Position numbers and translations under genes: made by a program. Shown one piece after another: positions 44,860 through 60,569 of a DNA stretch of 64,000 nt (its first letter is position 1; each line of letters begins with the position of its first letter). Where the stretch lies: the NCBI RefSeq assembly GCF_009497775.1, contig NZ_CP031012.1, positions 3,933,235 to 3,997,234 of the forward strand, written 5' to 3'. Below the pieces are notes generated by a model that ran no database searches, was not told the origin of the DNA, and saw nothing but the letters and a program-made list of their open reading frames with translations. This DNA is from Alcaligenes faecalis (lineage in GTDB: Bacteria; Pseudomonadota; Gammaproteobacteria; Burkholderiales; Burkholderiaceae_B).

Positions 44860-45966
44860 TCAGATAATCAAAGGCGTCAAAAATACGGCCAGAATCACTG
44901 CCGTCACCAAGCGCATCACGATGCCCAGAACAGCCGCCATCATGACTTCTTTTTCATTCAGATCCGAGCACTCGGCCCAGACCACCGGAATCTGTCCAAA
45001 TACAGCTGACAGTGGCAATCCCGACGAGGCCAGGACGAAGGAACCCACCACCAACGAGGGATCCAATGTTGAAGCCATCGCCTGCAACTTACCCATCGCC
45101 AAAGTCGGGCTGACCAGCATCGCCAGCACGCCTGTTTCGGGATGAATATTCAGCGCCAGCAAACCGCGCTCCAGCACATCGCTGACAGGTGCCCAAATAC
45201 CCATGTGTTCAAGCAAGCCAATGACACAGAACACCAAAGCCACGGCTGGAATCAGAATCAGCAGCAACAACTCCACCCCTTCGCGGGCGGCCTTGAACAG
45301 CATGGGTGCAAAATCAATATTCGGTGTGAAACGAGGCGCTGCCAGCAAATCCACCGAGCGAACATTGCGGTAGACCAGCCGTGACAGCAATAAGGGGGAC
45401 AGCAACAAGGGGCCGAAGATCGCAATCAGCACCACGGCAAAGACATTCACCCCGGCAAAGGTCAAGGCCATCATGCCCAGCATGAAGGTCGAGAACGATT
45501 GCTGTGACTGCACCATCGTGGCCACCGCAATTTTCTGCTCGTCCTTGGTAGCTCCTGCCTGGCGCAGCAAGGGGCCTGAAATACGGCCAGCCGCGTTGAT
45601 ATCACCAAAAATGTTGTACACGCTGGGAATGATGACGGCCGGATTGATTCCAATGGCCCGCATCGCTGGCATAAAGACCCGCATCATGGCGTCAGTAAAA
45701 CCCAAACGCTCCAGCAAGCGTCCAATGATGACGCTGATAATGACAGCCACCCCAACCTGCCCGGTCAAAAATACATCCACCACCACGGGCTTGACCTTGT
45801 TGAGCACCGTATCAAACGCGCCCGACAAGGTCGCGGGAAAGAAAAACAGCGTCAGCATGGCCACGGCCAGCAAGCTCAGGCCTACCGCCTCGATACGTTC
45901 CAAGGGGCGGCGGCCCGCAGGCGGTGAATGCACTACCTTATCGATTTCTATTGTTTTGTTATCCAT
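44860..45966 (-). CDS. Nucleoside-recognition (Gate) domain membrane protein
   Basis: 368 residues, about eight to nine hydrophobic segments. Gate-domain features: FFPATLSGAFDTVLNKV, PSVYNIFGDINAAGRISGPLL and ASSGLPLSAVFGQIPVVWAECSDL. Such proteins resemble YjiH or spore-maturation-type permease halves; transport of a small organic solute is inferred. Last gene of the operon starting at 49556; 26 bp after the Nif3-like gene. GGAGAG precedes the ATG. Confidence 0.75.
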   Translation of the reverse strand: MDNKTIEIDKVVHSPPAGRRPLERIEAVGLSLLAVAMLTLFFFPATLSGAFDTVLNKVKPVVVDVFLTGQVGVAVIISVIIGRLLERLGFTDAMMRVFMPAMRAIGINPAVIIPSVYNIFGDINAAGRISGPLLRQAGATKDEQKIAVATMVQSQQSFSTFMLGMMALTFAGVNVFAVVLIAIFGPLLLSPLLLSRLVYRNVRSVDLLAAPRFTPNIDFAPMLFKAAREGVELLLLILIPAVALVFCVIGLLEHMGIWAPVSDVLERGLLALNIHPETGVLAMLVSPTLAMGKLQAMASTLDPSLVVGSFVLASSGLPLSAVFGQIPVVWAECSDLNEKEVMMAAVLGIVMRLVTAVILAVFLTPLII

Positions 45967-45992
45967 GTCTCTCTCCGTTCAGGAAGCTGGAC

Positions 45993-47015
45993 TTACTGGA
46001 AGCTCAACACATTCTTGCCCATCAAATGGGCAGTCGAAAAATGCTGGGCGTATTCACGCAGGCGGGCCCCACCCACTTGATGCACAGGTGTCGATGTCAC
46101 CCGGTCGCGGAACATCACCACCTCGACACCATCGAGCAAAGCGCTCAGGGCATACGCCAAGGGCAACCCATTTTCCAGAATTTCCAGTACATGACTGTTG
46201 CCCACCAGGAAATTCAGGCCTAGTTCACGCGCGCATTCGATAAGCGCATGGCCGTCGTAGACCCGGCTGATGGAAGCCAGCACCGTGTCAACGCCCGGGT
46301 TCTCGGCCACCGCCTGACGCAGATGGTCGGGGCTGAAACCGGTATGCGGAAAAATGTGCAAAATACGACCGACTCGACTACTACGCTCGCCCAGCCGAAT
46401 GGCTCCCCGCGTCAGAGTACTGGTCTCCAGAATGTTTTCATTGCCCTTGATACGGCGTTCAGCCTGCAAGACCTGATCCTCCAGATCCAAGCCCATGAAA
46501 CCGTCAAGCCGATCCAGCATATCGCCCAAGGTGTTCACCCCTTCCAGGGGCTCGCCCACGAACATCACATTGCCATGAATGCCTCCATAAGCGATATCGC
46601 TTTTGCCCACTTTGTGGCCATGCAGATACGCAATACCCGGATGCAAACCATGAAACGCTTCGTGGCACTCCAGCGCAGCGATGCCATACAAGTCCAGATA
46701 ATCCTTCAGGGTCACGCCCCCGCAACTAGCAGCGTCAGCGATCGGATGATGCGCAACAATGGCATCCACCCCGGTTGCGCCGGCCAGCTCAATGCTCAGC
46801 TCGGACATGGTCATGCACACCGCCACCTTGCGCACTTCCTTGTTGGGATCCCCATGAATCAGCCCCGGGATCTCCAGTACTTCCTTGCCGTAAATTCCAG
46901 AGGACTTCCAGATCACGAAGGGATGATGGCCGCATTTGACCTCATCCATACAGGACACCATGCGTCCCCCCGTAATTACGTTCAATGCATCCAGCAAATC
47001 GGCTACATAGGCCAT
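45993..47015 (-). CDS. Nif3-like/DUF34 dinuclear-metal protein
   Basis: 340 residues from ATG 47015 (MAYVADLL), with GGAG about 8 nt upstream. The motif VDAIVAHHPIADAASCGG and the later HALIECARELGLNFLVGNSH fit the NIF3/NGG1p family, thought to bind two metal ions through His and Glu. The biochemical role of this family is not settled; metal or nucleotide-linked hydrolase functions have been suggested. Immediately preceded by a very strong hairpin (47037-47078). Cotranscribed with the Gate protein gene. Confidence 0.75.
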   Translation of the reverse strand: MAYVADLLDALNVITGGRMVSCMDEVKCGHHPFVIWKSSGIYGKEVLEIPGLIHGDPNKEVRKVAVCMTMSELSIELAGATGVDAIVAHHPIADAASCGGVTLKDYLDLYGIAALECHEAFHGLHPGIAYLHGHKVGKSDIAYGGIHGNVMFVGEPLEGVNTLGDMLDRLDGFMGLDLEDQVLQAERRIKGNENILETSTLTRGAIRLGERSSRVGRILHIFPHTGFSPDHLRQAVAENPGVDTVLASISRVYDGHALIECARELGLNFLVGNSHVLEILENGLPLAYALSALLDGVEVVMFRDRVTSTPVHQVGGARLREYAQHFSTAHLMGKNVLSFQ

Positions 47016-47031
47016 GATTTTGTCTCCAAAT

Positions 47032-47078
47032 AAAAAGCCGGCCTCGGGCCCTGGGAGTTCCCAGGGCCCGAGGCCGGC
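47032..47078 (-). promoter_or_regulatory. Terminator-like hairpin just upstream of the Nif3-like gene
   Basis: Arms 47037-47056 and 47059-47078 are perfectly complementary over 20 bp (GC-rich, GCCGGCCTCGGGCCCTGGGA in the first arm) with a 2-nt formal loop. On the minus strand the stem is followed by TTTTTATTT and then the ribosome site of the Nif3-like gene at 22 nt. This is an intrinsic terminator placed inside an operon, so an attenuator or partial terminator. Confidence 0.8.
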
Positions 47079-47263
47079 GGTATGCGAGCACTTCCTGTCG
47101 GCAACTTCCCCAAGCGGACCGGTCAGGGTCTGGGCTCGGTTCCAGAGCACACTGCCCACAAGGCAATCCACTCCGGACGGAAGGACAACAAGACTGTCTA
47201 CCAGTCAGCTTCTTTTTATCGATTCGGAATTCAGGACATCGGCTCTCACCAATGTCACTGCAT

Positions 47264-47620
47264 TCACACTCCTTTGTGCAACAACACCATGGTGGAAGAC
47301 AACTGCGCCGTCGCGTCGTAATCCTTGAAAATGGCCACGACGTCCAGGCCATACTCTTCCACCAAAACCTGCTTCATCTCTTTTTTGAACGCCTTGATCA
47401 GATACAGATCTGCCAAATCAGCGATATGCGCGTTTTCACGGCTCAGCGTCTGCAGGGCAGGCTGTCGTTTGTGAACGGCCAGCATGCTGATCCTGTCCTC
47501 GAGCACATCAATCTTTAGCGTCACCACACCTGAGGCAAAAATACTGCTGTTAATGCGGTTGTAGTCCCGGGTCAGTGCCTGCTTGAGTTCGCCTATAGAA
47601 GAAAAGCCTGCCATCACCAT
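47264..47620 (-). CDS. DUF2294/MpsC-like protein
   Basis: 118-residue soluble protein resembling the DUF2294 family, which includes MpsC of a Na+-translocating membrane-potential system in firmicutes. Family-like features: LTRDYNRINSS near residue 20 and a central LADLYLIKAFKKEMKQVLVEEYGLDVVAIFKDYD. GGGGG precedes the ATG by 6 nt. No membrane segment. Presence in this operon does not by itself imply ion transport. 33 bp after the OCD-like gene. Confidence 0.65.
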   Translation of the reverse strand: MVMAGFSSIGELKQALTRDYNRINSSIFASGVVTLKIDVLEDRISMLAVHKRQPALQTLSRENAHIADLADLYLIKAFKKEMKQVLVEEYGLDVVAIFKDYDATAQLSSTMVLLHKGV

Positions 47621-47653
47621 TGCCTACCCCCAACATCTTTGAATTATTGTCGT

Positions 47654-48601
47654 TTATCCGTGTTCAGCGACCGTCTCCTGTGCCATCTTGCTTTGCTGAT
47701 AACGGCGATACGCCAGACCAGCAACAGCAATATCTTCAATCGCCACACCCACTGATTTATACACGCAAATCCCCTGTGCGTCGTAGCCTTCTCCACGGTC
47801 CAATTGCAACCAATCGCTTAGTTCGCACAGCTTGTTGTGGATGGCGCAATCAGGTGCAGCCAGAATCAGGTCTCCGGCCTCGGCCAGCGTCTGCTCACCC
47901 CACTCCACCACAATCTTGCCAGCCCGCTCCAGGCAGGCATCATCCAGTTCCCGCGCTGTCGGCAAGCTGGAGCCGACAGCGGCGACAAAGCAACCCGGCT
48001 TCAGGCTGCGTCCATCAAACAAGGGAGTGCGACTGCGACTGGCTGTGACCAGAATATCTGCCTGTGCGGCGATCTCTTCTGCTCGGGCAGCTCGCACAGG
48101 CACGCCGCATTCCAGCTCCAGTTGATGGCAGCGCTTCTCATCGACACTCGGGCTCCAGACCAGCACGCGATGTAAATCAAAGGCCTGGCAAAACTGCACG
48201 GCATGCGCCATCCCCTGAGCTCCCAAACCCAACACGCCCAAGGTTTGAGAGCGGGGATTGGCGCCACGCTGCGCCGCCAGGACCGAGCACGCCGCAGTAC
48301 GCCACTGCGTAATCGCCCCGGCATCCAAAGTGGCGAGCGCCTGACCGCTAAGCGCATCAAACAGCACGATGACAAAATTGAATGCGCCGTGCACGGTCGT
48401 ATAAATCTTGGCGCCAGCCACTTGCTGGCCTGGAATGACCGCGCCCAAGGTCGACAAGCGGGTATCCCCCACCTGCGTGCGCACACGACGCTGCTGAGCC
48501 GCCTGGCCCTGCCCAAACTCGATGAAAGCCTGCTCCAGCACCTCCTGTACCGCAGGCGCATCAAGCAGCTCGTGTAGTTGCTGATCGGTCAAATGCAGCA
48601 T
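47654..48601 (-). CDS. Ornithine cyclodeaminase / mu-crystallin family protein
   Basis: 315 residues, NAD(P)-binding dehydrogenase or cyclodeaminase fold. The Rossmann stretch LGVLGLGAQGMAHAVQF, GAITQWRTAACSVLAA and the C-terminal CVYKSVGVAIEDIAVAGLAYRR are conserved family segments. Members act on ornithine, alanine, imines or lysine-derived rings, so the substrate here is open; a cyclic imine produced upstream in the pathway is plausible. Fifth position in a tight minus-strand operon. Confidence 0.85.
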   Translation of the reverse strand: MLHLTDQQLHELLDAPAVQEVLEQAFIEFGQGQAAQQRRVRTQVGDTRLSTLGAVIPGQQVAGAKIYTTVHGAFNFVIVLFDALSGQALATLDAGAITQWRTAACSVLAAQRGANPRSQTLGVLGLGAQGMAHAVQFCQAFDLHRVLVWSPSVDEKRCHQLELECGVPVRAARAEEIAAQADILVTASRSRTPLFDGRSLKPGCFVAAVGSSLPTARELDDACLERAGKIVVEWGEQTLAEAGDLILAAPDCAIHNKLCELSDWLQLDRGEGYDAQGICVYKSVGVAIEDIAVAGLAYRRYQQSKMAQETVAEHG

Positions 48602-48613
48602 GGGCCGCTCCTC

Positions 48614-48892
48614 TTACCAACTAACCGTAACGTCACCACGAACAAAGGTCTGGCACGCCATGCGAAACCCGTCTGCCAGATCCTGTTCGGACAAATGCTT
48701 GTGTTCCTTGGCCTTGACCTCATCCGTATTGTCCAAGCCCTCGGTAATGCGGCATTTGCATGTCCCGCAGATACCGCCTCCGCACTTGAACGGAATGCCA
48801 CCCCGCTCCCGAATCGATACCCGCAACAAATTGCTGTTTTCAGCGGCGGACACAACCAAATCATTGTTCGATGCAAATGTAATCTGAACCAT
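48614..48892 (-). CDS. [2Fe-2S] ferredoxin (second of two)
   Basis: 92 residues, plant-type. Cluster ligands Cys37-x4-Cys42-x2-Cys45 (CGGGICGTC) and Cys80 (FRMACQT). Lies 12 bp before the OCD-like gene and 11 bp after the unassigned 114-residue gene. An electron carrier for the oxygenase of the same regulon is the natural reading. Confidence 0.9.
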   Translation of the reverse strand: MVQITFASNNDLVVSAAENSNLLRVSIRERGGIPFKCGGGICGTCKCRITEGLDNTDEVKAKEHKHLSEQDLADGFRMACQTFVRGDVTVSW

Positions 48893-48903
48893 ATTCTGCT
48901 ACC

Positions 48904-49248
48904 TCAGGATTGCTGCTGTACCGGGGCCTGGGCCCCAGCCTTGTGACCGACGACCTCACACTGACGCAACTCGGCCTGTATGCTGCCAAACTGTGTCAAT
49001 CCGGCCAGCTCTTCATAAGCCTGCTCGGCTGTCGCAAACTTTTCCATTTGCCGGGTAGGAATGTCATTGATCGTGCCGTTTGGCGTCTCTTCCACAATGC
49101 GAACGCGCGACCCTTCCTGAATGCGTGCAATGGCAAACACCGCTTTGAAACGTCCCTGAAAATGGTATTCATACGCTGCCACCATTTCCACGCCCACTCC
49201 CGGCTCCGTGCGGTATTCTCCCGGCTTGCTCGTCAGCACCACATACAT
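48904..49248 (-). CDS. Unassigned 114-residue protein between two ferredoxin genes
   Basis: I do not recognise this family. The ATG at 49248 is chosen because AGGAGG lies 7 nt upstream; a GTG one codon earlier is possible. The reading start overlaps the ferredoxin stop (TGATG). Seen: MYVVLTSKPGEYRTE start, one Trp-free soluble domain, acidic and basic residues mixed, a hydrophobic FKAVFAIARI strand, a single Cys, and a disordered Gln-rich end. No membrane helix or signal peptide. Position suggests an oxygenase accessory or coupling protein. Confidence 0.75.
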   Translation of the reverse strand: MYVVLTSKPGEYRTEPGVGVEMVAAYEYHFQGRFKAVFAIARIQEGSRVRIVEETPNGTINDIPTRQMEKFATAEQAYEELAGLTQFGSIQAELRQCEVVGHKAGAQAPVQQQS

Positions 49249-49556
49249 CACTGCACCTCCTGTGTTTCTGCCTGCTCCAGAACGATGTCCTGGTTAATCC
49301 ACAGCTGGCACGCCAGCCGCCAGCCCTGATCCAGTCGCTCGCCCAACTGCTTTTTCTCTTTCCAGTTGGCGGCAGGCAGATGCTCGGCCCCCTCCAGCAC
49401 ACGACACGCACATTTGGCGCACTTGCCCATGCCGCAACCGTAGGTCAAATGAGGAAAGGGGAATTGCTTGATGCCCGCCCTGACCACCAAATTCGTGTTC
49501 TCCTGCACTTCGCCCACATGAGTCTGGCCGTTTTTATGAAAAGTAATGGTTGGCAT
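49248..49556 (-). CDS. [2Fe-2S] ferredoxin (first of two)
   Basis: 102 residues from ATG 49556 (MPTITFHKNG), with AGGAGG 4 nt upstream; the frame extends upstream but without a site. Ligands Cys41-x4-Cys46-x2-Cys49 (CGMGKCAKC) and Cys83 (LACQ). First gene of the minus-strand operon running to 44860. A GntR-type GGTATAC element lies at 49625-49634, about 70 bp upstream. Confidence 0.9.
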   Translation of the reverse strand: MPTITFHKNGQTHVGEVQENTNLVVRAGIKQFPFPHLTYGCGMGKCAKCACRVLEGAEHLPAANWKEKKQLGERLDQGWRLACQLWINQDIVLEQAETQEVQ

Positions 49557-49620
49557 AAGACCTCCTGCTTGCTGCCAATGATGCGACCGGATTGCGAGCC
49601 CTGACCGCCTGAAAAAACCA

Positions 49621-49634
49621 AGAACGGTATACCA
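49621..49634. promoter_or_regulatory. GGTATAC operator, ferredoxin-operon copy
   Basis: AACGGTATACCAAG-type element with GTATAC at 49627-49632. On the minus strand a TTGACT starts just before it. One of five intergenic copies that flank the units of the 44.8-58.6 kb regulon. Confidence 0.7.
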
Positions 49635-49697
49635 AGTCAAAAAATGCGCTTTCCCCGCAACAGATTTCCTTGGTTTTAGACACAGTTTTCCGTCAAT

Positions 49698-49726
49698 TTG
49701 AGTAGAAACCCCTATTGCGGTATACT
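49698..49726 (+). promoter_or_regulatory. Plus-strand promoter overlapped by a GGTATAC element
   Basis: TTGAGT (49698-49703), 17-bp spacer, TATACT (49721-49726). The -10 is part of GCGGTATACTTAA (GTATAC at 49720-49725), so the regulator would block RNA polymerase directly. It drives the short frame at 49758. Confidence 0.75.
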
Positions 49727-49757
49727 TAATTCAATTCAAACCCTAAACGAGATTGCC

Positions 49758-49949
49758 ATGAAAACCCCCGTCGAACTTCGCTATTTGCAGCGTCCTGTCG
49801 GCGAGCAGTTGCTGCCTCATTTGGCTCAGCGCAAGCATCTGCGCCGTCGTATTCCACTCATCAATCTGCCCTCGCTCACTGAGCTGTTTGGCAGCCGAAA
49901 AAAGTGCGACCCTGAAGCGGCCCAGGATCAGCTCCCGCACAGTGCCTAG
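49758..49949 (+). CDS. Small hypothetical protein
   Basis: 63-residue frame MKTPVELRYLQRPVGEQ to DQLPHSA, basic in the middle (RKHLRRR). No family recognised, and the ribosome site is weak (ACGAGA). Support comes from a good promoter 31 bp upstream with an overlapping GGTATAC element. Its stop overlaps the convergent reductase stop by 4 bp. It could be a small protein of the regulon or a non-coding transcript. Confidence 0.4.
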   Translation: MKTPVELRYLQRPVGEQLLPHLAQRKHLRRRIPLINLPSLTELFGSRKKCDPEAAQDQLPHSA

Positions 49950-50980
49950 GCAAGAGAAGGCTCTGCCGAGCTGGTATCGGACTGAAAGTTGAAGGCATCG
50001 GCATACATGAACTGCTCATTGGCGCCATGCTCCTTGAACAGACCACGGGCCTGCTCAATCATCACGGGCGAGCCGCACAAGTAAATGGCATGCTCTGACA
50101 GGTCAGGTTCATCTCGACACACCTGTTGCTGCACATAGCCGCGCGCGCCTTGCCAACTCTCGTCAGCATGAGAGAGCACAGGGACGAAACGGAACTCGCA
50201 CAAGCGGTCCGCCCAAGATTCGATTTCCTGGGCCAGATACAAATCCTCGGGTCGGTTCATCCCCCAATACAGGCTGACAGGCGGGCAATCGTCCTTGTCC
50301 AGCAAGGACTCCAGAATCGCCTTGATCGGTGCAATGCCCGTACCAGTGGCCACCATGACCATGGGCCTCCAGTCTCGCTCGCGCCAATAGAACACGCCCA
50401 AGGGCAGCTCCAGCAGCAGCTCGTCTCCGGCTTTCAGCGTCGGCAGACATGCCTGGGTGAAACGGCCGCCTTCCACTTCCCGCACATGCAGTTCAATACG
50501 ACCCTGTGCGGCATCGGCATTGGCCATGGAAAAACTGCGTGCACGCCCGTCCTCGAACAGGATGTTCAGATACTGACCAGGACGAAACTGCACTGGCACG
50601 TCCTGGGGCAACTGCAAGGTCAAGCGCCAGATGCCCTGACACGCCCGCTCCACGCTATGAACCTGTGTCCTGACTTGCTGCGCTTCAGGCAACTCGTCAC
50701 GATGAGCGGCCAGACTGATTTCAATATCGGCATCCAGTCGAGCCTGGCAGGCGGCGGCATGGCCCTGCTCGTGTTCTTCATCAGCAATGCTCATGGGCAG
50801 GCAGTCATCCTCATAACAAACCTTCCCGCGAGTGACCTGAATACGGCAGGTACCGCAACCGCCAAACTCACAGTCGCTATAAATGCGCACGCCTTGGCGC
50901 TGGGCGGCCTGCAAGATGGTCTCTTGCGGTTCTACCCAGAACTGCTCGCCGGTTTCCTTGATGTCGACACGATGGGCCAT
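49946..50980 (-). CDS. [2Fe-2S] ferredoxin-NAD(P)H flavin reductase (phenol hydroxylase reductase type)
   Basis: 344 residues from ATG 50980 (MAHRVDIKET), AGGAGG 7 nt upstream. N-terminal ferredoxin domain: Cys37-x4-Cys42-x2-Cys45 (CEFGGCGTC), then an FAD domain (RARSFSMANA) and NAD domain (VMVATGTGIAPIKAILESLL; AIYLCGSPVMI). It would feed NAD(P)H electrons to the regulon's ferredoxins or straight to the diiron oxygenase. 20 bp after the GlcG-like gene. Confidence 0.92.
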   Translation of the reverse strand: MAHRVDIKETGEQFWVEPQETILQAAQRQGVRIYSDCEFGGCGTCRIQVTRGKVCYEDDCLPMSIADEEHEQGHAAACQARLDADIEISLAAHRDELPEAQQVRTQVHSVERACQGIWRLTLQLPQDVPVQFRPGQYLNILFEDGRARSFSMANADAAQGRIELHVREVEGGRFTQACLPTLKAGDELLLELPLGVFYWRERDWRPMVMVATGTGIAPIKAILESLLDKDDCPPVSLYWGMNRPEDLYLAQEIESWADRLCEFRFVPVLSHADESWQGARGYVQQQVCRDEPDLSEHAIYLCGSPVMIEQARGLFKEHGANEQFMYADAFNFQSDTSSAEPSLA

Positions 50981-51000
50981 GACCCGTCCTCCTGATGCCA

Positions 51001-51480
51001 CTATTTCTTGATGTCCGCCTGAACCAGCACGTCCAGACCCTCTGCCTTCAAGGCCTCGGCCAAGGCCTGCAAGCCGGCCACACCGGCTGCCGTGTCCTGC
51101 TCGCCGTTACCGCCACTCAGGCCTATACCACCAATGACCTCGCCATTGACCACAATGGGATAGCCGCCCACAAAGGCCGCAAAACGTCCTTCAAAGCTCA
51201 ACTGAATCCCGAAGGCCTCATTACCCGGCAAGGCGGGACCATTGGGCGGCGTGGTGAACAAATGGGTGGAGCGCTTGTGGCCGGCAGCGGTAAACGCCTT
51301 GTTCCAGGCAATCTGGGCGCCGGTAATACGAGCCCCGTCCATGCGCTCCATGACGATGGGATAACCCCCTTCGTCAACCACACAAACGGTCTCCAGCACG
51401 CCAATCTCTTTGGATTTGGCAATCGCCGCGTCCACCATCAAGCGCGCTTCGCGCTGTTCGAGACGTAGGATTTTTTTCAT
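51001..51480 (-). CDS. GlcG/HbpS family protein (DUF336)
   Basis: 159 residues. Family signature includes ETVCVVDEGGYPIVMERMDGARI, KAFTAAGHKRST and GGYPIVVNGEVIGGIGLSGGNGEQD. HbpS binds heme in Streptomyces; many GlcG relatives sit in catabolic operons with unknown roles, and some are reported as cofactor or isomerase-like helpers. Third gene after the oxygenase and aldehyde dehydrogenase genes. Confidence 0.88.
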   Translation of the reverse strand: MKKILRLEQREARLMVDAAIAKSKEIGVLETVCVVDEGGYPIVMERMDGARITGAQIAWNKAFTAAGHKRSTHLFTTPPNGPALPGNEAFGIQLSFEGRFAAFVGGYPIVVNGEVIGGIGLSGGNGEQDTAAGVAGLQALAEALKAEGLDVLVQADIKK

Positions 51481-51511
51481 AAGTCTTCTCAGTATTTCGG
51501 GTTAATAAAAT

Positions 51512-52972
51512 TCAGATACCGCGATACACGGTCTTGATCTGGGTATAGAACTCCAGGCCCGCCCGACCCGACTCACGGAAGGTGGAGGTGCTGGACTGTT
51601 TCAGTCCACCAAAAGGAGCATTGATCAAGTTGCCGGTTGTCGTGCGATTGATCTTGACCGTCCCGGCCTCAATGTCATTGGCAAAGCGATGCGCATATTC
51701 AGCACTGCGCGTCACAATGGCGGCAGACAAGCCGTATTCGGTGTCATTGGCCATGGCCAGTGCCTGCTCGTAGGAATCGATTTCCAGCAAGACAATCACC
51801 GGGCCAAAAATCTCTTCGCGGGCAATACGCATCTGCTGGGTCACGTCCGTAAACAAAGCCGGGCGCATGAACAGGCCGCGTGCGTAGTCACCGTCAGTCA
51901 AGCGTTCACCGCCCAGTAAATGGGTGGCTTCCTGCTTGCCGATGGCCACATATTCCAGAATGCTTTCCAGTTGGCTTTCGGTGGCGATCGGGCCCAGATC
52001 GGGGTTGCCATTCAAACCATTACCCACGGTCAAAGCGCTGACTTTCTCTACCAGGCGCCGTGTGAATTCTTCTTTGACCTGACGATGCACCAGCACACGG
52101 CTGGTTCCCGTGCAGGCCTGACCGCTCAAGGAAAATCCGCCTTGAACCACCAGTTTGACGGCCAGATCCAGGTCGGCGTCTTCCATGACAATCAAGGGGT
52201 TTTTTCCGCCCAGCTCCATTTGGGTCCGAGTGCTCATGCGTGCCTGACGACAAATGTTTTCACCCGCCTGGGTCGAGCCAGTAAACGAAATGGCGCGTAT
52301 CTGAGGGGATTGCACCAGCGTGGCCCCCACTTCACTGGCCCTGCCATGCACCAGGTTCAGCACACCCGCCGGGACCCCTGCTTGTGCAAAGGCTTCGCAC
52401 AGGTAGTAGCCGGTCAAGGGCGTGTCAGACGACGGCTTGAAAACAACGGTATTGCCGGTGATCAAGGCGGGGGCAATTTTGCGTGCCGGGATGGAGATGG
52501 GGAAATTCCAGGGCGCAATCACGGATACCACACCCAAAGGTTCACGCTGGGTATAGACCAGTTGCTGTGCATCGTCCTGAGGGAATGTTTCGCCGGTATA
52601 GGTCTGGCCTTCAACCGCATAAAAACGCAGGGTCTGGGCCGAGCGCCCAACTTCCATCTTGCTTTGCGCCAGCGTTTTGCCCTCTTCCCGCGTCAGACCC
52701 TGAGCGATACGGTCCACATTGGCATCAAGCCAGGCTGCTGCTGCATTCAGCACACGGGCCCGAGTAGAGATAGGCGTTGCTCGCCATCCCGCAAAGGCGG
52801 CCTGAGCAGCAGCAACGGCGGCCTGCGCGTCCTCAGCCGTGGACAGAGGGAAAGCTCCCACCACATCGTCCCGATCGGCCGGATTCAGATTAGGCGTCGT
52901 GCGCCCGCTCTGGCTGGGCAGCCACTGCCCATCAATGTAATTGTCGAAAACGACGTCCTTGAGATTGTCCAC
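51512..52972 (-). CDS. NAD(P)-dependent aldehyde dehydrogenase
   Basis: 486 residues, full length. Active-site segments: VIAPWNFPISIPARK, SFTGSTQAGENI, MELGGKNPLIV (general base Glu) and GQACTGTSR (catalytic Cys). Belongs to the broad ALDH superfamily; the substrate may be a semialdehyde formed after the oxygenase step. 60 bp after the diiron oxygenase gene and 31 bp before the GlcG-like gene. Confidence 0.93.
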   Translation of the reverse strand: MDNLKDVVFDNYIDGQWLPSQSGRTTPNLNPADRDDVVGAFPLSTAEDAQAAVAAAQAAFAGWRATPISTRARVLNAAAAWLDANVDRIAQGLTREEGKTLAQSKMEVGRSAQTLRFYAVEGQTYTGETFPQDDAQQLVYTQREPLGVVSVIAPWNFPISIPARKIAPALITGNTVVFKPSSDTPLTGYYLCEAFAQAGVPAGVLNLVHGRASEVGATLVQSPQIRAISFTGSTQAGENICRQARMSTRTQMELGGKNPLIVMEDADLDLAVKLVVQGGFSLSGQACTGTSRVLVHRQVKEEFTRRLVEKVSALTVGNGLNGNPDLGPIATESQLESILEYVAIGKQEATHLLGGERLTDGDYARGLFMRPALFTDVTQQMRIAREEIFGPVIVLLEIDSYEQALAMANDTEYGLSAAIVTRSAEYAHRFANDIEAGTVKINRTTTGNLINAPFGGLKQSSTSTFRESGRAGLEFYTQIKTVYRGI

Positions 52973-53032
52973 CGCTGTACTTCCTTGTTTCTAGGTCGGC
53001 GGGCAGCCCATCTGCCCGCTCGGCTTTCTGGC

Positions 53033-53767
53033 TCAGGCTGCTTCCAGCTGCAGTTCTTGCAGACTGATCTCGTCTTTGACGTAATCGTTGTACAGGGAGG
53101 TGGTATACAGTAGACGCATCTCGGCACCAATTTCGCAGATACGCAAGCAACGCTGCTGCAGTTCCACAGTGTTCGCATGCTCAAGCACGATCTGGTAGCC
53201 ACGCTCGCCGTGGATTTCGTCCGACACAATGTGCAGGTCGAAAAACTCCACTTCTTCGTCCGTGAAGCCGTATTTTTCGCGCAAGGTTGGGGTCTGCTTG
53301 CGGTAGATCGAGGGCACTTGGGACTCCAGGCCAACCACCAGCCCCGCCACCGCAACAACCGGATCTTCGCGCATGGCAATGGCGTAACACCAGGCCTGCA
53401 AGGCTCGGGTGGTGGCATTCATGTTGTCGGGGTCTTCAATACGTGCCCGTGTCGTGCCGCAAGCTTCGCCAAAGCGGATCAGCAGATCTGTGTGTCGGTC
53501 ACCGCCAATTTCCTCTTCGTACATATTGGCCAGCAAAAAGTCTTTGGCTTCCACGTACTCGGCGGGAGTGCGGGCATACAGATAACCCAGGTAATCGGCA
53601 AAAGGGCCGACATAGTGATAGTGGTTTTCAGCCCAGCGAGCCAGATGCTCACGGCTTAACTTGCCGCTGGCCCAGGCAATACTGAAAGGGGAAGTATTGG
53701 CACTTTTCCCTTTAATGGCGGTTTCCAGTGCGGTGCGAAATTCATCGCGATTCAGCAGTTTTTCCAT
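53033..53767 (-). CDS. Heme-oxygenase-like diiron oxygenase (HDO/TenA-fold)
   Basis: 244 residues, all-alpha TenA/PqqC-like fold. The six HDO metal ligands are present: Glu85-x6-His92 (EEIGGDRH), Glu148 (GLESQ), and His179-x3-Asp183-x2-His186 (HIVSDEIH). As I recall, the same spacing defines Chlamydia CADD and its relatives SznF, BesC and UndA. A true TenA or PqqC would lack this set. Likely carries out an O2-dependent cleavage or N-oxidation. First gene of the unit, behind a GGTATAC element. Confidence 0.85.
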   Translation of the reverse strand: MEKLLNRDEFRTALETAIKGKSANTSPFSIAWASGKLSREHLARWAENHYHYVGPFADYLGYLYARTPAEYVEAKDFLLANMYEEEIGGDRHTDLLIRFGEACGTTRARIEDPDNMNATTRALQAWCYAIAMREDPVVAVAGLVVGLESQVPSIYRKQTPTLREKYGFTDEEVEFFDLHIVSDEIHGERGYQIVLEHANTVELQQRCLRICEIGAEMRLLYTTSLYNDYVKDEISLQELQLEAA

Positions 53768-53840
53768 GACTGTTTCCTTGTTGAAAGACGTCGCCTTGAT
53801 AGCAGCCGACGAAAGATGAGGTTTGGACTATTTAAGTATA

Positions 53841-53852
53841 TTGTATACCGTC
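53841..53852. promoter_or_regulatory. GGTATAC operator, diiron oxygenase copy
   Basis: Minus strand AGACGGTATACAATA with GTATAC at 53843-53848, followed by TATACT, a probable -10, a few bases downstream. It is 76 bp upstream of the oxygenase ATG. Confidence 0.7.
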
Positions 53853-53890
53853 TACTATTTTAGAAAGTAGGGAATAACCCTGCCCGTTTA

Positions 53891-55372
53891 TCAGGCCAGC
53901 GCCACGCAACCATCCTTACGAGGGTCAGAAACAGCCTGCAAACGGCCGTCTGCCAAACGCTCAACCGCCTGAGCCCCGCCAAAGTCGCTGCGGCCAGCCA
54001 GTTCGCCTACGCCTTTATCAGGCGGCACATACCCGTGCTCACGCAGAAAGGCCGTACGGTTCGCATCAAAACCATCCTCCAGGGCCAGACGCCCGGCCCC
54101 CTCCAGACGCCAGCGCGGTTCAAACATCGCTTTATCCAAAGGCCAGCCATCGCGCAAAACACGGGTCCATATCTGTATCTGGCCTTGGGGTTGCATCAAG
54201 CCGCCCACCACACCCAGTCCCATATGGAACTGGCCGGACTTCAAGGCCAAAGACGGGACCACCGTGTGATAGGGCCGTTTGCCCGGCCCAGGGCCATTCA
54301 CATGCCCTGGCTCGGAGAAACCGAATCCCCGGTTTTGCAGCACAAACCCACAGCCGGGCACGGCATAGCCTGACCCAAACCGTTTGAAGATGCTGGACAT
54401 GAACGTAACGGCCAGCCCGTCCGCATCGACCACAACGGTGCAGACCGTATTCCCGGCCGGATCACACACGACTCGTGAAGCCTGAGCCATTGCGGCTTCC
54501 GTCGCCTTGACCAGCGCCAGCTCCGCCGCATCCTGGTCAACGGGGTGTTTCCAGGCGCGTTGCACGGCCTCCAGAACCGCCACCCCATGCGTGTTGGGAG
54601 GACATTCATAAAGGCTGAACTCACCCAGCGATGCGCTGACAGGTTCACAGAAGAACCCTTTATGACGGCGAAAGTCCTCAGCCCTCAACAATCCCTGCAC
54701 CTGTTCCATTGCCTGTTCAGCGTGCTGCGCGGGGCGACCCAGATAAAAGGCATCTGGCCCTTGCGCGGCTATCTCCTCCAAGACAGCCGCCAGCTCCGGA
54801 TTCCGGTACTGCTCCCCTGCTTTGGGCGGCTTGCCCGCACTATAAAGGGCGGCACACACGGGATCGCGATGCAGCACAAAATCGAAGATTTGCCATTCAC
54901 GCGCCGCCACCGGCGCTACCGCAAAACCTTCCCGCGCTGCCTGAATGGCAGGCTGCAACAAGCGCGCCCAATCCAGGCGGCCGTAGCGCTGGTGCATATC
55001 CCACCACCCTCGCACCAGACCGGGCGTGGTAATGGACAACACATGACGCTCCGGAATCCGTCCCTCAGGCAAAGCCTGAACATGCTCAGCCTTCAACAGC
55101 AGGGGTGCCGCGCCGCTGCCGTTGTAAGCCACTGGCATACTGTCGGGCGGTGCAATCATGGCCAGCAGATCGCCACCAATGCCTGTCGCCATAGGCTCAA
55201 CGACACCCATGACGGCATCGGCAGCAATAGCCGCATCCACTGCACTACCCTTGAGTTCCAGCATGGCCTGCGCGGCCCTCACCGCCAAGGGGTGCCCGGC
55301 AGCAACGGCCCAATGAGTCCCCAAACCCTGTTTTTCACCTGCGCTATAGGCTGTCGTACCCATATCGCTCAT
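53891..55372 (-). CDS. Gamma-glutamyltransferase family protein
   Basis: 493 residues from ATG 55372 (MSDMGTTAYS), which overlaps the permease stop by 4 bp. N-terminal nucleophile hydrolase: AVAAGHPLAVRAAQAML, GGNAVDAAIA-like GSAVDAAIAADAVMG, GIGGDLL. The putative autocleavage Thr is in GNTVCTVVVDADG, aligned with the family Thr before xxVVD. No signal peptide, unlike periplasmic GGT, so it may be a cytoplasmic amidohydrolase such as the oxamate-hydrolase group. Coupled to the permease gene. Confidence 0.87.
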   Translation of the reverse strand: MSDMGTTAYSAGEKQGLGTHWAVAAGHPLAVRAAQAMLELKGSAVDAAIAADAVMGVVEPMATGIGGDLLAMIAPPDSMPVAYNGSGAAPLLLKAEHVQALPEGRIPERHVLSITTPGLVRGWWDMHQRYGRLDWARLLQPAIQAAREGFAVAPVAAREWQIFDFVLHRDPVCAALYSAGKPPKAGEQYRNPELAAVLEEIAAQGPDAFYLGRPAQHAEQAMEQVQGLLRAEDFRRHKGFFCEPVSASLGEFSLYECPPNTHGVAVLEAVQRAWKHPVDQDAAELALVKATEAAMAQASRVVCDPAGNTVCTVVVDADGLAVTFMSSIFKRFGSGYAVPGCGFVLQNRGFGFSEPGHVNGPGPGKRPYHTVVPSLALKSGQFHMGLGVVGGLMQPQGQIQIWTRVLRDGWPLDKAMFEPRWRLEGAGRLALEDGFDANRTAFLREHGYVPPDKGVGELAGRSDFGGAQAVERLADGRLQAVSDPRKDGCVALA

Positions 55373-56886
55373 CCGAATATCAGCACGGCACAAATTGTCG
55401 ACAGCGCCATCCCCGCCAGCACAGGAACCGTCAGGGCTCGCACCAGATCCAGCACATGCACTCGGGCAAAGCCCGCCACGGCAATCAATGAAGACCAGGC
55501 AATCAGCGTGCCGCCTCCGGTCCAGATGGCGCCGATCTGTCCTACCGCAGCCAGAGTTTCCACCTCCAGCCCGGACACCGGACTCAAAGCCGACGCCAGC
55601 GTGCCCGTCAATGGCAGGCCCGAGAAGCCCGAGCCATCAATGCCCGAGATCATGCCTACCAACAAAACACCAAAAGCCACCAGAAAATGATTGTCCGGAA
55701 TCAGATGCTGACCCGCCGAGATCAGCTCGAACAGAAGGCTGGGCGTTTGCTCCAGGGGGGTACCCAAAATAGCAGACGTTGCTTCACTGGCACCCAGAAA
55801 GAAGAAGCCGGCGATGGGCAGCACCGAACCCATGGCGCGAAAGGCGAATACAAAGCCATCGGTCATATGGTCCGGGCAAGTGTCCAGCATGCGGCGTGGA
55901 CCTTCTGCCATACAGGTGGCAATCATCATCAGCACAAAGGCCACACCCCCAACCAAACCGGCGGCATCTCCACCACGCAGGACTGGCAAGGACGGGATAA
56001 AGCGGGGCAGCAGCATGATGCCAATCACCGCCAGGAACGCCAGTGGCGTAATCCAGGCCAGAATGCGTGAGTAGCGCTCTTCCTTGGCACTCAAACCGGC
56101 ATGCACCGTATGTTCATTCCCTGCCGTGCCACGGGCAATCTCCGCCTTGTCATAGGTCCCTTGAGATTCCATTTCATCCAGGGTGCTATCGGGCGCCTGG
56201 CGCATCCAGGCATCCAGCAAACGACTGTCGGCCGGTTTGAAATGGCGGCGCATCAGCAGAAATGCCAACGTCAGCGCAACACCACCTGTAATCCAGGAGA
56301 GCACCAGAGCACGATCAGCCAGCACGGCCACATCGGCACCGACACCTGCCGCCTTGGCGCTGATGCCCGGGGCAACCCCAATTATGTAGTCCGACGATAG
56401 CGCCATGCCCTGCCCACAGATGGCGATAGCCATCGCACCGACCAGTGGCGGCAAGCCAGCAGCAATAGCCGCCGGCAGCAAAATAGCCGACACCAGAGGC
56501 ACAGCAGGTGTAGGCCAGAAGAACAGCGAAATAAAGTAGGTAGCCGCTGCAATCATCAAAAAGGACGAGCCACTATTGACCATGACCTTGCGGAAAGGGG
56601 CCACCATCTTCACATCGGCCTCCAAGCGCTTTAACGAGTTCAGCAAGGCAGTCATGAACGTGATCACCAGGAAAATATTGAACAGTTCCTGAGCGGCCAC
56701 AAAGCTGGCAGAAAAAATACTGATGAAGCCCTGAATCGGACTGCCCGTCATGGCAGTGACAACCGCCAAAGTACCAATCACGGATGGCACCACCACGTTG
56801 GCCCGAAAAATCATCGTAATGATGATGACCAGAACGCTGATCAAATAAGCCCAGTGCGCCGCACTGAGCACCACGTCGCTTTGCAT
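55369..56886 (-). CDS. Multi-spanning permease of unassigned substrate
   Basis: 505 residues with about 12 hydrophobic segments and no signal peptide. Resembles ion-transporter-superfamily permeases (repeated GISAKAAG, SEATSAILGT, GMISGIDGSGFSGLPLTG segments), but I cannot name a transport family with confidence. AAGGGGG precedes the ATG. First gene of a two-gene unit with the gamma-glutamyltransferase homologue; a GGTATAC element lies 51 bp upstream. Probably imports the pathway substrate. Confidence 0.72.
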   Translation of the reverse strand: MQSDVVLSAAHWAYLISVLVIIITMIFRANVVVPSVIGTLAVVTAMTGSPIQGFISIFSASFVAAQELFNIFLVITFMTALLNSLKRLEADVKMVAPFRKVMVNSGSSFLMIAAATYFISLFFWPTPAVPLVSAILLPAAIAAGLPPLVGAMAIAICGQGMALSSDYIIGVAPGISAKAAGVGADVAVLADRALVLSWITGGVALTLAFLLMRRHFKPADSRLLDAWMRQAPDSTLDEMESQGTYDKAEIARGTAGNEHTVHAGLSAKEERYSRILAWITPLAFLAVIGIMLLPRFIPSLPVLRGGDAAGLVGGVAFVLMMIATCMAEGPRRMLDTCPDHMTDGFVFAFRAMGSVLPIAGFFFLGASEATSAILGTPLEQTPSLLFELISAGQHLIPDNHFLVAFGVLLVGMISGIDGSGFSGLPLTGTLASALSPVSGLEVETLAAVGQIGAIWTGGGTLIAWSSLIAVAGFARVHVLDLVRALTVPVLAGMALSTICAVLIFG

Positions 56887-56932
56887 GTATCCCCCTTTCC
56901 TTCTCTTTTTTCTGAATATTTAGCATTCCTGA

Positions 56933-56944
56933 AACGGTATACTA
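56933..56944. promoter_or_regulatory. GGTATAC operator, permease copy
   Basis: AAACGGTATACTATC with GTATAC at 56937-56942, 51 bp upstream of the permease ATG. It matches the other copies over AACGGTATAC and lies in the divergent region with the TauE gene. Confidence 0.7.
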
Positions 56945-57011
56945 TCTTCAATTAATGATCGAAATCAGAAAAAACTATCAAAAACTGGGGAAAACTCTAA
57001 GAATTTCACGC

Positions 57012-57041
57012 TTGAAACACTTAGATTGAATACCTTATACA
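57012..57041 (+). promoter_or_regulatory. Promoter of the TauE/SafE gene
   Basis: TTGAAA (57012-57017), 18-bp spacer, TATACA (57036-57041), 15 bp before the ATG at 57057. The -10 lies in CCTTATACAAATT, a weaker relative of the GGTATAC element. Confidence 0.65.
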
Positions 57042-57056
57042 AATTAAGAGGGAGCT

Positions 57057-57797
57057 ATGGCGGCTTTGATTGATCTTGTGGACCCGCTCTCCTGGCTGCT
57101 CATGGCCCTGCTGATTGTGCTGGCTGCCTTTTTGCAAGGCGTTGGTGGAGTCGGGTTTGCGATGCTGGTCGCGCCAATTGCCGCCTTGGTATTTCCGCAG
57201 TTGGTTCCAGGCCCCCTACTGGCCTTGGGTGGCAGTGTCTCTTTGCTGGCCGCCTTGCGAGAGCGCCAACATATCGTGCCCGATGTCGTTGTCTGTGCAC
57301 TGGGTGGGCGTGCCACCGGATCGATCATTGCCATACTGGCCATGACGCAACTCCCCATAGAAGCAGTCAACCTGGGTTTTGCCCTTGCCATTCTGGTGGC
57401 AGTCACACTGAGTGCCTGGGGCTTGCGTATCCTGGCCTCCAAACGAAACATGATCCTGGCTGGCATCGCCTCAGGCATCATGGGGACCTTGACTTCAGTA
57501 GGCGCTCCCGCTCTAGCCATTGCCATGCAAAATCTGGCTCCTGCACAGCTACGGGCTTCATTGGGTCTTATTTTGTTTTTGGGCGCAAGCCTGTCCTTGG
57601 TCCTGCTTATTGTGGCGGGCCTGTTCTCCGTGCAACAGGCAATGCTCAGCATCGTGCTCTACCCCTTCATGCTGCTGGGCTTCACGTTATCGGGGCAACT
57701 ACGTCATAAAGTCAGTCTGCCGCTGATGCGTAGACTGCTATTGGGAATTTGCTCTCTAAGTGCCGTGGTCTTGATTACCCGCACGCTGTGGCAATAA
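57057..57797 (+). CDS. TauE/SafE family anion exporter/permease
   Basis: 246 residues and seven or eight hydrophobic segments. Paired short repeats typical of TauE/SafE are seen: FLQGVGGVGFAMLVAPI and SGIMGTLTSVGAPALAIAMQ. Members move sulfonates, sulfite or other organic anions. GGGAG precedes the ATG. Divergent from the permease unit and 94 bp before the GntR gene, so likely part of the same regulon. Confidence 0.85.
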   Translation: MAALIDLVDPLSWLLMALLIVLAAFLQGVGGVGFAMLVAPIAALVFPQLVPGPLLALGGSVSLLAALRERQHIVPDVVVCALGGRATGSIIAILAMTQLPIEAVNLGFALAILVAVTLSAWGLRILASKRNMILAGIASGIMGTLTSVGAPALAIAMQNLAPAQLRASLGLILFLGASLSLVLLIVAGLFSVQQAMLSIVLYPFMLLGFTLSGQLRHKVSLPLMRRLLLGICSLSAVVLITRTLWQ

Positions 57798-57811
57798 TGC
57801 TTAGGCCGCAA

Positions 57812-57853
57812 ACTGTATACCATATTCAGAAAAGTGCGTTCACACCGTATAAT
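57812..57853 (+). promoter_or_regulatory. GntR promoter with GGTATAC-type element
   Basis: AAACTGTATACCATA has GTATAC at 57816-57821. TTCAGA (57826-57831) and TATAAT (57848-57853), 16 bp apart, form the promoter. The element adjoins the -35, fitting autoregulation of the gene at 57892. Confidence 0.7.
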
Positions 57854-57891
57854 CGTGTCTGGCCCTTCTGCCCGATTGCACAGGTCGCACC

Positions 57892-58599
57892 ATGAATATC
57901 CCCAGTTTCCACCTCCCCCATTCCCTTGGCGATACAGATAACCGTCGCTTGGGCGATCAGCACGCGTCACTGTTTGCGGTGATACGCGACCAGTTACGTG
58001 AACGTATCCTGAGTGGTGAATTCCATCCAGGCGACCGTCTGGTGGAAGGAAAATTGGCGAGCGAGCTGGGTGTGTCGCGTATTCCTGTACGAGAGGCCCT
58101 GCGCGAGCTGGCCTCCGAAGGACTGGTCACTATCGAACCACGACGTGGCGCCTCTGTGGCCGTCCTGTCGGCAGAGATTGCCTACAACATGGCTGAAGTG
58201 CGTGCCACGCTGGAAGGCTTGAATGCAAAACTGGCCGCCCAGCGCCGGGACCCGGCCAATATCGAAAAGCTGCAAACCATTTTGAGCCAGGGCCATGAAG
58301 CCATGGATGCCGGCAATCTGGATCTGCTCAAATCACTGAACCGACAGTTTCATGAAACTCTGGCCACCATGTCGGGCAATATCGTGCTGACCGAGCTGAT
58401 GCGCTCTCTGCGAGATCGCACCGCCTTGTTATTTGCACCCAGCAATTTGCAGCGCATCCGCCAGAACTGGGAAGATCACTCCCAGATCCTCAATGCGGTT
58501 GTGGCCGGTAATGGCGATCTGGCCAACCTGTTGGCCACCCAGCACGTGCACAATGCGGCCAAAGCCTATCAGGACGCGCAAAACGGCGAGAAGGTCTGA
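57892..58599 (+). CDS. GntR-family regulator with FCD domain, likely master regulator of the 44.8-58.6 kb regulon
   Basis: 235 residues. N-terminal winged helix: VIRDQLRERILSGEFHPGDRLVEGKLASELGVSRIPVREALRELASEGLV. The C-terminal FCD all-alpha ligand domain includes EVRATLEGLNAKLAA and NRQFHETLATMSGN, with metal or carboxylate-binding His/Asp typical of the class. An element of the shared GGTATAC type lies 71 bp upstream of its start. FCD regulators usually respond to a pathway acid. Ends directly against the convergent TetR stop. Confidence 0.92.
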   Translation: MNIPSFHLPHSLGDTDNRRLGDQHASLFAVIRDQLRERILSGEFHPGDRLVEGKLASELGVSRIPVREALRELASEGLVTIEPRRGASVAVLSAEIAYNMAEVRATLEGLNAKLAAQRRDPANIEKLQTILSQGHEAMDAGNLDLLKSLNRQFHETLATMSGNIVLTELMRSLRDRTALLFAPSNLQRIRQNWEDHSQILNAVVAGNGDLANLLATQHVHNAAKAYQDAQNGEKV

Positions 58600-59190
58600 T
58601 CAAGCAGGGCGGCCCATTCTCAATGCCGCCTCAAAGACTAGCCAAACCGATTCCAGACGCCGCTGGTACTTGCGCGCACCACCAAATAACAGCTCGCTTT
58701 GCAGGCTGTCGATCAAGGCCATGTAAGTCATGGCCAAGGTATCTACACTCAAACCTGTTTCCGGCCTGGCCAGGGCAGACTGTGCCAGGGCCCGATGGAT
58801 GATGCCTTCCAGATCCGCCATGAACACATGCATGGGTTCCATCACCACATCGTACAAATGCACAGGCGGCGCAAACAAGGTGCGAATCCAGAAACGTACT
58901 TGATGCGATTGCTCAAAACGCTCCTGTATCCCTTCCAGATACGCCCGCAACTGCTGCTTGATGCCATCGCCTCCGTGCAGAACCTGACGGGCGTGGTTCA
59001 GTTCATCATCCACAATCTTCGGAATCAAGCTCAGGAACAGCTCGTCCTTGTTGCGAAAATGGGCGTAGACCGAGGGCTTCTTGATGCCGACATCAGCGGC
59101 AATCTCGTTCATGGTGGTGGCATCAAAGCCCTGAACAGCAAAGCGCGCCAACGCGGCATCCTGCAGTTTTTCAGTAGTGGTTTTGCTCAC
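58600..59190 (-). CDS. TetR-family regulator
   Basis: 196 residues. N-terminal helix-turn-helix (AARFAVQG-like LARFAVQGFDATTMNEIAADVGIKKPSVYAHFRNKDELF). The C-terminal ligand domain is typical. It follows the Bcr-type MFS gene by 64 bp on the same strand and ends with no gap against the GntR stop. The palindrome at 60570-60585 upstream of the MFS gene is its probable operator. Confidence 0.9.
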   Translation of the reverse strand: MSKTTTEKLQDAALARFAVQGFDATTMNEIAADVGIKKPSVYAHFRNKDELFLSLIPKIVDDELNHARQVLHGGDGIKQQLRAYLEGIQERFEQSHQVRFWIRTLFAPPVHLYDVVMEPMHVFMADLEGIIHRALAQSALARPETGLSVDTLAMTYMALIDSLQSELLFGGARKYQRRLESVWLVFEAALRMGRPA

Positions 59191-59254
59191 AGTCCAACAA
59201 GCTCTCAGTCAAAGGCCAATGATCAGGGCCGCCTTCGCGGCCCGCAGCAACTGC

Positions 59255-60490: not shown

Positions 60491-60569
60491 GTCACGCTCT
60501 CTACAGTGCGGAAAAACTGAAAATCAAACACGCTCACACCCCCGGATATAGCGCAATTCATTAAAACTA

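Follow-up and report, generated by a model that had tools for sequence, protein, structure and literature searches.

What does a heme-oxygenase-like diiron oxidase/oxygenase (HDO) do when it is encoded together with a reductase, two ferredoxins, an aldehyde dehydrogenase (ALDH) and a GntR-type regulator? The question is raised by a locus at positions 44,860 to 58,599 of the window, by which the whole analysed stretch of 64,000 nucleotides is meant (Alcaligenes faecalis, assembly GCF_009497775.1, contig NZ_CP031012.1, positions 3,933,235 to 3,997,234 of the forward strand). HDOs are noted for unusual oxidations in natural-product pathways. According to the available parts of PMC13185094, they appear specialised in biosynthetic pathways. 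It was found here that the HDO and its adjacently encoded electron chain are conserved together across Alpha- and Betaproteobacteria, and the locus is read, with somewhat better than even confidence, as a GntR-controlled catabolic regulon with a multicomponent HDO oxygenase as the central enzyme. The host genome is a single contig of 4.16 Mb; of the named genomes in the locus search, that of Alcaligenes faecalis AU14 was the closest, with an HDO protein of 100% identity.

The following genes were considered (strand in brackets).

53033..53767 (-): HDO, 244 aa, Pfam Haem_oxygenas_2 with E 1.9e-37
49946..51001 (-): [2Fe-2S]-FAD-NAD reductase, BenC-like, Pfam Fer2, FAD_binding_6 and NAD_binding_1
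49248..49556 (-): ferredoxin 2 (FDX2, [2Fe-2S]), Pfam Fer2 1.3e-9; ORF listed from 49640, first ATG at ~49556
48904..49251 (-): U115, orphan protein of 114/115 aa, predicted mostly beta
48614..48892 (-): ferredoxin 1 (FDX1, [2Fe-2S]), Pfam Fer2 2.9e-12
51001..51480 (-): HbpS/GlcG-like protein, Pfam 7.5e-32
51512..52972 (-): ALDH
57892..58599 (+): GntR/FCD regulator, Pfam GntR 1.9e-21 and FCD 1.1e-25
55369..56886 (-): TP505, polytopic membrane protein of 505 aa, likely transporter
57057..57797 (+): TauE/SafE-family permease, 246 aa, Pfam TauE 4.5e-13
53891..55393 (-): GGT-family Ntn hydrolase homologue, Pfam 8e-102
47654..48601 (-): OCD/mu-crystallin-family dehydrogenase, Pfam 2.4e-36, PDB 3hdj with E 2.9e-97

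For the regulator, HDO, reductase, two ferredoxins, ALDH, OCD-like, GGT-like and HbpS-like genes, the open reading frames (ORFs) and families agreed with the coordinates given by an earlier reading made from the letters of this DNA (the sequence-only reading). Of the three membrane transport proteins counted there, TP505 and the TauE/SafE permease were retained and a Gate-domain protein scored below threshold; for TP505, no Pfam or NCBIfam match and no PDB relative was found (best E 0.96).

Conservation was scored with the window proteins in the 80 of 493 relatives that were most similar in HDO; these represent 79 distinct loci. HDO, as the search query, is present in 79/79 loci by construction, and 25 of the 79 loci come from Achromobacter, which is thus over-represented; for this reason counts were also taken over 25 groups, which were assigned by hand from record titles, mostly at the level of genus and in four cases above it. 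FDX2, U115 and FDX1 each accompanied HDO in 79/79 loci and 25/25 groups. The neighbourhood search for HDO plus two ferredoxins, proposed earlier as a check, thus returned 79/79 loci against 0-3 of 79 for the flank controls (MBL, TetR, MFS, Dps and C1-C3). The HbpS-like gene was present in 75 loci, GntR in 71, TP505 in 67, ALDH in 57 (a second type, ALDHb, in 4 more), and TauE and the reductase in 47 each; rarer members were OCD (20), GGT (13), the MpsC-like and Nif3-like genes (6 each) and Gate (5). Some of the fetched loci were short or cut, and the simple script that called ORFs in high-GC loci missed some genes (e.g. FDX2 in L105, which was read by eye). The grouping of these genes is genuine and far from accidental, being conserved as a set in 79 loci.

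The association of U115 with HDO was also followed in samples of genomes. Among 200 genomes of the order, HDO (E <= 1e-30) was detected in 6 and U115 in 5, and every genome with U115 also had HDO; among 119 genomes of another family (that of G636), U115 and HDO were detected in the same 3. The spread is patchy, with HDO at E <= 1e-40 in 5/398 genomes of the phylum. One HDO genome (G921) lacks U115, and there FDX1 directly follows FDX2 (sequence read by eye); no GTATAC motif, described below, was found in that HDO locus. From the co-occurrence in the samples and the exception of G921, U115 follows this HDO yet can be lost. L105, an HDO locus that lacks both U115 and GTATAC, has genes for TctC receptors and for an MmgE/PrpD-family protein, as well as a second HbpS-like gene.

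Three loci, L043, L055 and L070, have two HDO genes each. The copies in L043 and L055 are 100% identical as proteins (at the DNA level 99.2% over 837 bases in L043 and 98.3% over 764 bases in L055), and those in L070 share 91% protein identity. In all three loci, one HDO stands with the HbpS-like and reductase genes (with ALDH between in L043) and the other with FDX2-U115-FDX1, a layout which looks as if both modules need HDO.

The complete HDO ligand pattern claimed in the sequence-only reading was borne out: Glu85, His92, Glu148, His179, Asp183 and His186 were identical in 92/92 aligned rows (80 distinct sequences, with some genes present twice), and by sequence alignment this 3-His/3-carboxylate set coincides with the CADD ligands. 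CADD was also the best solved relative by sequence (E 2.5e-17). In structure prediction by AlphaFold2 (AF2), the five models ranged from pLDDT 86.7 to 58.3, and the best one (86.7) had CADD 8va9 as its top fold match (TM 0.80/0.91, rmsd 2.0), followed by PqqC 3hlx (TM 0.83/0.80, rmsd 5.9) and then by UndA, HrmI, TenA, FlcD and BesC. Because PqqC also matched closely, the fold alone cannot decide the class. In NCBIfam, HDO scored 41 bits against the PqqC equivalog (cut-off 240) and 93.9 bits against the CADD model (cut-off 200). Tyr27 and Lys152 of CADD are its sacrificial residues, according to the available parts of PMC11965152; their positions were occupied by Ser29 in 92/92 rows and by Gln158, respectively, the latter position holding Gln in 90 rows, with Thr in the 2 rows of a single distant gene that is present twice. 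Since the ligand residues are kept, the PqqC score is low and the sacrificial Tyr/Lys are absent, the window protein is classed by these sequence features as a diiron-type HDO, neither PqqC nor a p-aminobenzoate (pABA) synthase. The comparison of a predicted structure with CADD and BesC, also proposed earlier, gave a heme-oxygenase-like fold; that the diiron ligands are kept was read from the sequence alignment.

Two further HDO relatives were observed. A second homologue in the same genome (L092:5928-6650; G000 C1 ~3407999-3408649) has 27-28% identity and lies beside an MFS gene, with all six ligands kept and the Tyr of the CADD position absent in a four-sequence alignment. At L089:8429-14986, a distant HDO (44-46% identity) adjoins a GntR gene (49% identity) and a gene for a Rieske-domain protein. 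An SDR gene is also present there, and an AMP-binding gene (ligase/acyl-CoA-synthetase type) lies ~3 kb from HDO; L089 is a related but different system.

The reductase scored 194 bits against the NCBIfam BenC model, under the cut-off of 430. U115 was aligned in 61 sequences with a mean column identity of 48%, and its AF2 model (pLDDT 87) has one helix and is otherwise mostly beta. The U115 of the window had no Pfam match (only scattered weak ones occurred among the 61 members), no PDB relative was detected by sequence profile (best E 0.92), and fold comparison of the model gave no clear match. Its public name 'ferredoxin' was rejected because U115 has one Cys. By analogy, U115 probably serves in coupling or docking.

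The regulator and the short palindrome GTATAC were then considered together. Both the winged helix-turn-helix of GntR and an FCD domain are present, so that the regulator is of the FCD type, and NanR was the second-best model for it. NanR is an FCD-GntR protein which binds GGTATA repeats. GTATAC occurs nine times in the window against 2.83 expected (sd 1.64; 0/100 shuffles reached 9), and six of the nine sites are in the locus.

49627..49632: GTATAC before FDX2
49720..49725: GTATAC before a 63-aa gene, overlapping a predicted -10 (TATACT), a kind of promoter match no commoner in the region than in shuffles
53103..53108: GTATAC inside the HDO 3' end, 131 nt before ALDH
53843..53848: GTATAC before HDO
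56937..56942: GTATAC between TP505 and TauE
57815..57820: GTATAC before GntR, 77 nt upstream

Across the 79 loci, and against a background of 0.7%, GTATAC was found <=150 nt upstream of TP505 (67/69), HDO (72/82), TauE (34/47), ALDH (33/57), FDX2 (12/79) and the Cupriavidus amidase (5/6), and of the internal genes in 0/47 (reductase), 0/77 (U115), 0/80 (FDX1) and 2/75 cases (HbpS). Its density was 313 in 665,332 bases within clusters against 42 in 857,299 bases outside; this background is mostly coding DNA, and the upstream counts of the internal genes are the better control. In the loci printed (<=3 per group), the site was often GTATACnGTATnC, a 13-bp near-palindrome, in Bradyrhizobium-, Aminobacter-, Kaistia- and Variovorax-type loci, and GTATACGnn or similar in Acetobacteraceae-type loci. 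Because GTATAC precedes TP505 and HDO in most loci against a low background, the split modules look like one GntR regulon, in which GntR would bind at the GTATAC sites.

Operator scans were extended to whole genomes. With one mismatch allowed, GGTATACAGTATTC matched in 8/14 genomes, and 15/19 sites were within known loci. A perfect unlinked operator-like site was found in Aminobacter (L099:7341), flanked by a LysR gene and a gene for a 782-aa peroxidase-domain protein. The three other unlinked sites (L100-L102, one mismatch) are found within an unlabelled gene, next to one, or ahead of another GntR gene. In the genome of the window, KRGTATACMGTWT gave two sites, both in the locus (one match in the reversed control), and a looser pattern gave the locus plus three one-mismatch sites (L098, L103 and L104), of which that in L103 adjoins cobalamin-independent methionine synthase. 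No further regulon members were recognised from the scans of the 14 genomes and the window's own genome.

A small gene that was absent from the earlier list is situated under one of the sites.

49758..49949 (+): 63-aa gene with the motif P-x-G-x-Q-L ... R-x3-R, with GTATAC (49720) 38 nt upstream

It was matched by tblastn in 40/79 loci at E <= 1, many of them weak (L008 at 0.20). The motif scan gave 39/79, or 38 after removal of L051 (no start, unrelated), plus the window, L083 and L091, with 2 matches in the reversed-sequence control. Codon differences are mainly in the third position (window/L003: 6, 1 and 19 for the three positions), and by these features the ORF is a conserved gene. Its place differs. 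In Alcaligenes and its close relatives it is found in the gap that separates the reductase gene from FDX2, in Achromobacter it diverges from HDO, and most of the Cupriavidus matches have it between GntR and an amidase gene. Of the 17 copies from outside Achromobacter, 16 have a GTATAC upstream of the called start at a distance of 23-48 nt, and for the remaining one (L059, no start found) the distance is 69 nt. None of the 24 Achromobacter copies has GTATAC <=120 nt from the called start; in L011 (Achromobacter), the shared HDO site is ~125 nt away. No PDB relative of the 63-aa protein was found in the search.

The accompanying enzymes were examined for hints of the substrate. In the GGT homologue, Thr316 is at the nucleophile position, aligned to the residue before Thr-His-Tyr-Ser in 2e0w, where 2e0w carries Ala; we take 2e0w to be the T391A mutant of E. 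coli GGT. Arg114, Asp433 and Ser462-Ser463 hold the glutamyl group in E. coli GGT. In the homologue, these are replaced by Ser (for Arg114, FREMAP), Phe-Gly (for Asp433 and its neighbour) and His-Thr, respectively, and the TIGR00066 score was 243 bits (cut-off 357.85). Its nearest solved relatives include the GGT-related Ntn amidases 2nlz and 2i3o, which have an NGSG-type loop, and 5hft, presumably oxamate amidohydrolase HpxW. Because the gamma-glutamyl-binding residues are changed, the homologue is more likely an amidase/acylase, and the gamma-glutamyl intermediate suggested earlier lost its footing, as the gene also occurs in only 13/79 loci. Other loci contain a carboxylesterase (L063 and L070), an alpha/beta hydrolase (L082) or an amidase (Cupriavidus, 6 loci).

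The best NCBIfam model for ALDH was alpha-ketoglutaric semialdehyde dehydrogenase (572.6 bits, under the cut-off of 770), and the different ALDH of Aminobacter was also closest to this model, below the cut-off. Since both ALDH types are nearest to this enzyme, the matches hint at a short semialdehyde acid. The hydrolase and ALDH hints fit an amine- or amide-bearing carboxylate, without naming a compound. A cyclic-imine intermediate, also suggested earlier, is weakly supported by OCD in 20/79 loci.

From the gene content, the ligand residues, the predicted fold, the linkage across genera, the shared palindrome and the co-occurrence of U115 with HDO, we infer the following electron path, role of U115, repression, substrate class, step order and catabolic direction. 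The substrate or its precursor would enter via TP505 and/or TauE, and an amide- or ester-cleaving hydrolase, where present (GGT-family here; amidase, carboxylesterase or alpha/beta hydrolase elsewhere), would free substrate or product. Electrons from NAD(P)H would pass through the FAD/[2Fe-2S] reductase and the two [2Fe-2S] ferredoxins to the diiron centre of HDO, which would activate O2 and act on a small substrate that bears an amine or amide group and is probably carboxylated, with U115 probably acting in coupling or docking. The oxidation would yield an aldehyde, which ALDH would convert to the acid, and in some species the OCD-like enzyme would handle an imine or amino-acid product. GntR would repress on GTATAC sites overlapping or flanking the promoters and be released by a carboxylate of the pathway. 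The system is conserved in two proteobacterial classes and probably co-regulated; the mechanism is a reasoned proposal.

Several results weigh against this proposal. The reductase was not found in 32/79 fetched loci, ALDH of either type in 18/79 and TP505 in 12/79, and Acetobacteraceae-type loci often show no more than HDO, the ferredoxins, U115 and HbpS, sometimes joined by GntR and TP505. None of the four hydrolase types, each detected with one of only four probe proteins, was seen in 58/79 loci, and the hydrolase would therefore be optional or encoded elsewhere. Upstream GTATAC was rare for OCD (1/20), GGT (3/14), carboxylesterase (0/2) and GntR (19/71), the link between GTATAC and GntR is one of position, and U115 is missing in G921. 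The direction of breakdown, and not synthesis, is drawn from the types of genes. The oxidative breakdown of a nitrogen-containing compound, as first suggested, accordingly stands in part: the context is of a catabolic type (FCD-GntR, transporters, ALDH and sometimes hydrolases), and a nitrogen-containing substrate is plausible only.

Among the alternatives, a biosynthetic cluster survives best, in which HDO would make a modified amino-acid-like metabolite, TauE/TP505 would be the exporter and ALDH/OCD would do the tailoring. TauE-family proteins are often exporters. At the distant HDO locus L089, the AMP-binding gene also speaks for synthesis. In the available parts of PMC13185094, the HDOs that have been characterised are mainly biosynthetic enzymes with amino acids as substrates. 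Against these points, no NRPS, PKS, ATP-grasp or AMP-binding gene was seen among the annotated neighbours of close HDO loci (part of the neighbours were annotated), the regulator is of the FCD type, and uptake-type systems (TctC, ABC and MFS) and hydrolases vary between loci; we regard the biosynthetic cluster as unlikely. Lower still is placed a detoxification or stress unit (for a reactive aldehyde, heme or an oxidant) that serves no growth pathway, to which the frequent HbpS/GlcG-like partner, ALDH and the Aminobacter operator-like site beside a peroxidase-domain gene would be suited; the peroxidase case is single, and the membrane transport proteins and Cupriavidus amidase under the same GTATAC sites, together with the FCD-type regulator, argue against such a unit. 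A self-sacrificing pABA synthase or other CADD-type cofactor maker is highly improbable, since the nearest solved relative and top fold match being CADD is offset by the replaced sacrificial residues, the CADD score below its cut-off and the patchy spread of HDO.

How the catabolic reading relates to known systems was then considered. Bacterial multicomponent monooxygenases (sMMO, toluene and isoprene type) consist of a diiron oxygenase that is a ferritin-like hydroxylase, a reductase, a ferredoxin and a small coupling protein. The window system resembles them in its division of labour and differs in the heme-oxygenase-like fold of its oxygenase and in having two ferredoxins; membership was ruled out because the oxygenase is an HDO and not a ferritin-like hydroxylase. 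Judged as an MmoB/TmoD-type coupling protein, U115 showed neither a Pfam match nor a clear fold match. UndA, BesC, HrmI, FlcD and other HDOs share the fold and ligand type with the window HDO, whereas they are biosynthetic, and we know of no multi-protein electron chain of this kind for them. CADD/NePabS, the HDO pABA synthases, share the predicted fold and the six-ligand dinuclear site; unlike them, the window HDO lacks the sacrificial Tyr and Lys and sits with reductase, ferredoxins and ALDH.

A reductase of a type comparable to that of the window occurs in MboA-MboB (mangotoxin acetylenase and redox partner), in which MboA, an HDO, needs a dedicated flavin/[2Fe-2S] NAD(P)H reductase for full turnover (PMC13185094, available parts). 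In the same parts, MboAB is maybe the first characterised dedicated HDO-redox partner pair, such partners are only starting to be described, and, unlike in the window locus, MboA-MboB acts in mangotoxin biosynthesis on a peptide, with no ferredoxin partner or U115-like protein described. Among the titles and abstracts listed in literature searches, no catabolic HDO with ferredoxins was seen, which is not proof of absence.

It is tentatively suggested, at somewhat under even confidence, that the system represents a new multicomponent oxygenase architecture, in which HDO replaces the ferritin-like hydroxylase and is served by two non-equivalent ferredoxins and by U115 as a coupling protein of unrecognised fold, with the co-regulated 63-aa protein as a further component, and that this would be the first HDO devoted to catabolism. 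If so, this tightly conserved HDO, encoded with all the parts of a candidate electron chain, would be a tractable model for HDO turnover in cells, and the HDO family would be extended into breakdown metabolism. The two orphan proteins (U115 and the 63-aa protein) and the shared operator-like motif could make the substrate findable.

The remaining features are at the margins of the locus.

47264..47620 (-): 118-aa protein, doubtfully MpsC-like
47037..47078 (-): intrinsic-terminator-like hairpin, 19 pairs followed by a T-run
45993..47015 (-): Nif3-like (DUF34) protein, likely start, as read from its sequence, at ~47015, after the hairpin
44860..45966 (-): Gate-domain-like membrane protein, Pfam Gate 24.9 bits (cut-off 29.6)

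Pfam MpsC (cut-off 23 bits) did not match the 118-aa protein of the window, and one of the two orthologues tested scored 14.8 bits (E 0.031), under the cut-off, which leaves the MpsC-like assignment weak. Terminator-like hairpins are not in excess in the region (17 against 16.6 by shuffling), and that at 47078-47037 has by far the longest stem; a second one follows the Nif3/Gate unit (44833-44810). Because the Nif3-like ORF starts past the terminator-like hairpin and the two genes occur in only 5-6/79 loci, 44860-47015 is probably a separate unit, and the Nif3-like, Gate and MpsC-like genes, earlier taken as members of the set, are peripheral to it. On the other side of the locus, TetR, Bcr/CflA-type MFS and ferritin/Dps-like genes are found at 58600-61330 (-); as these are present in 2-3/79 loci only, they were placed outside the set.

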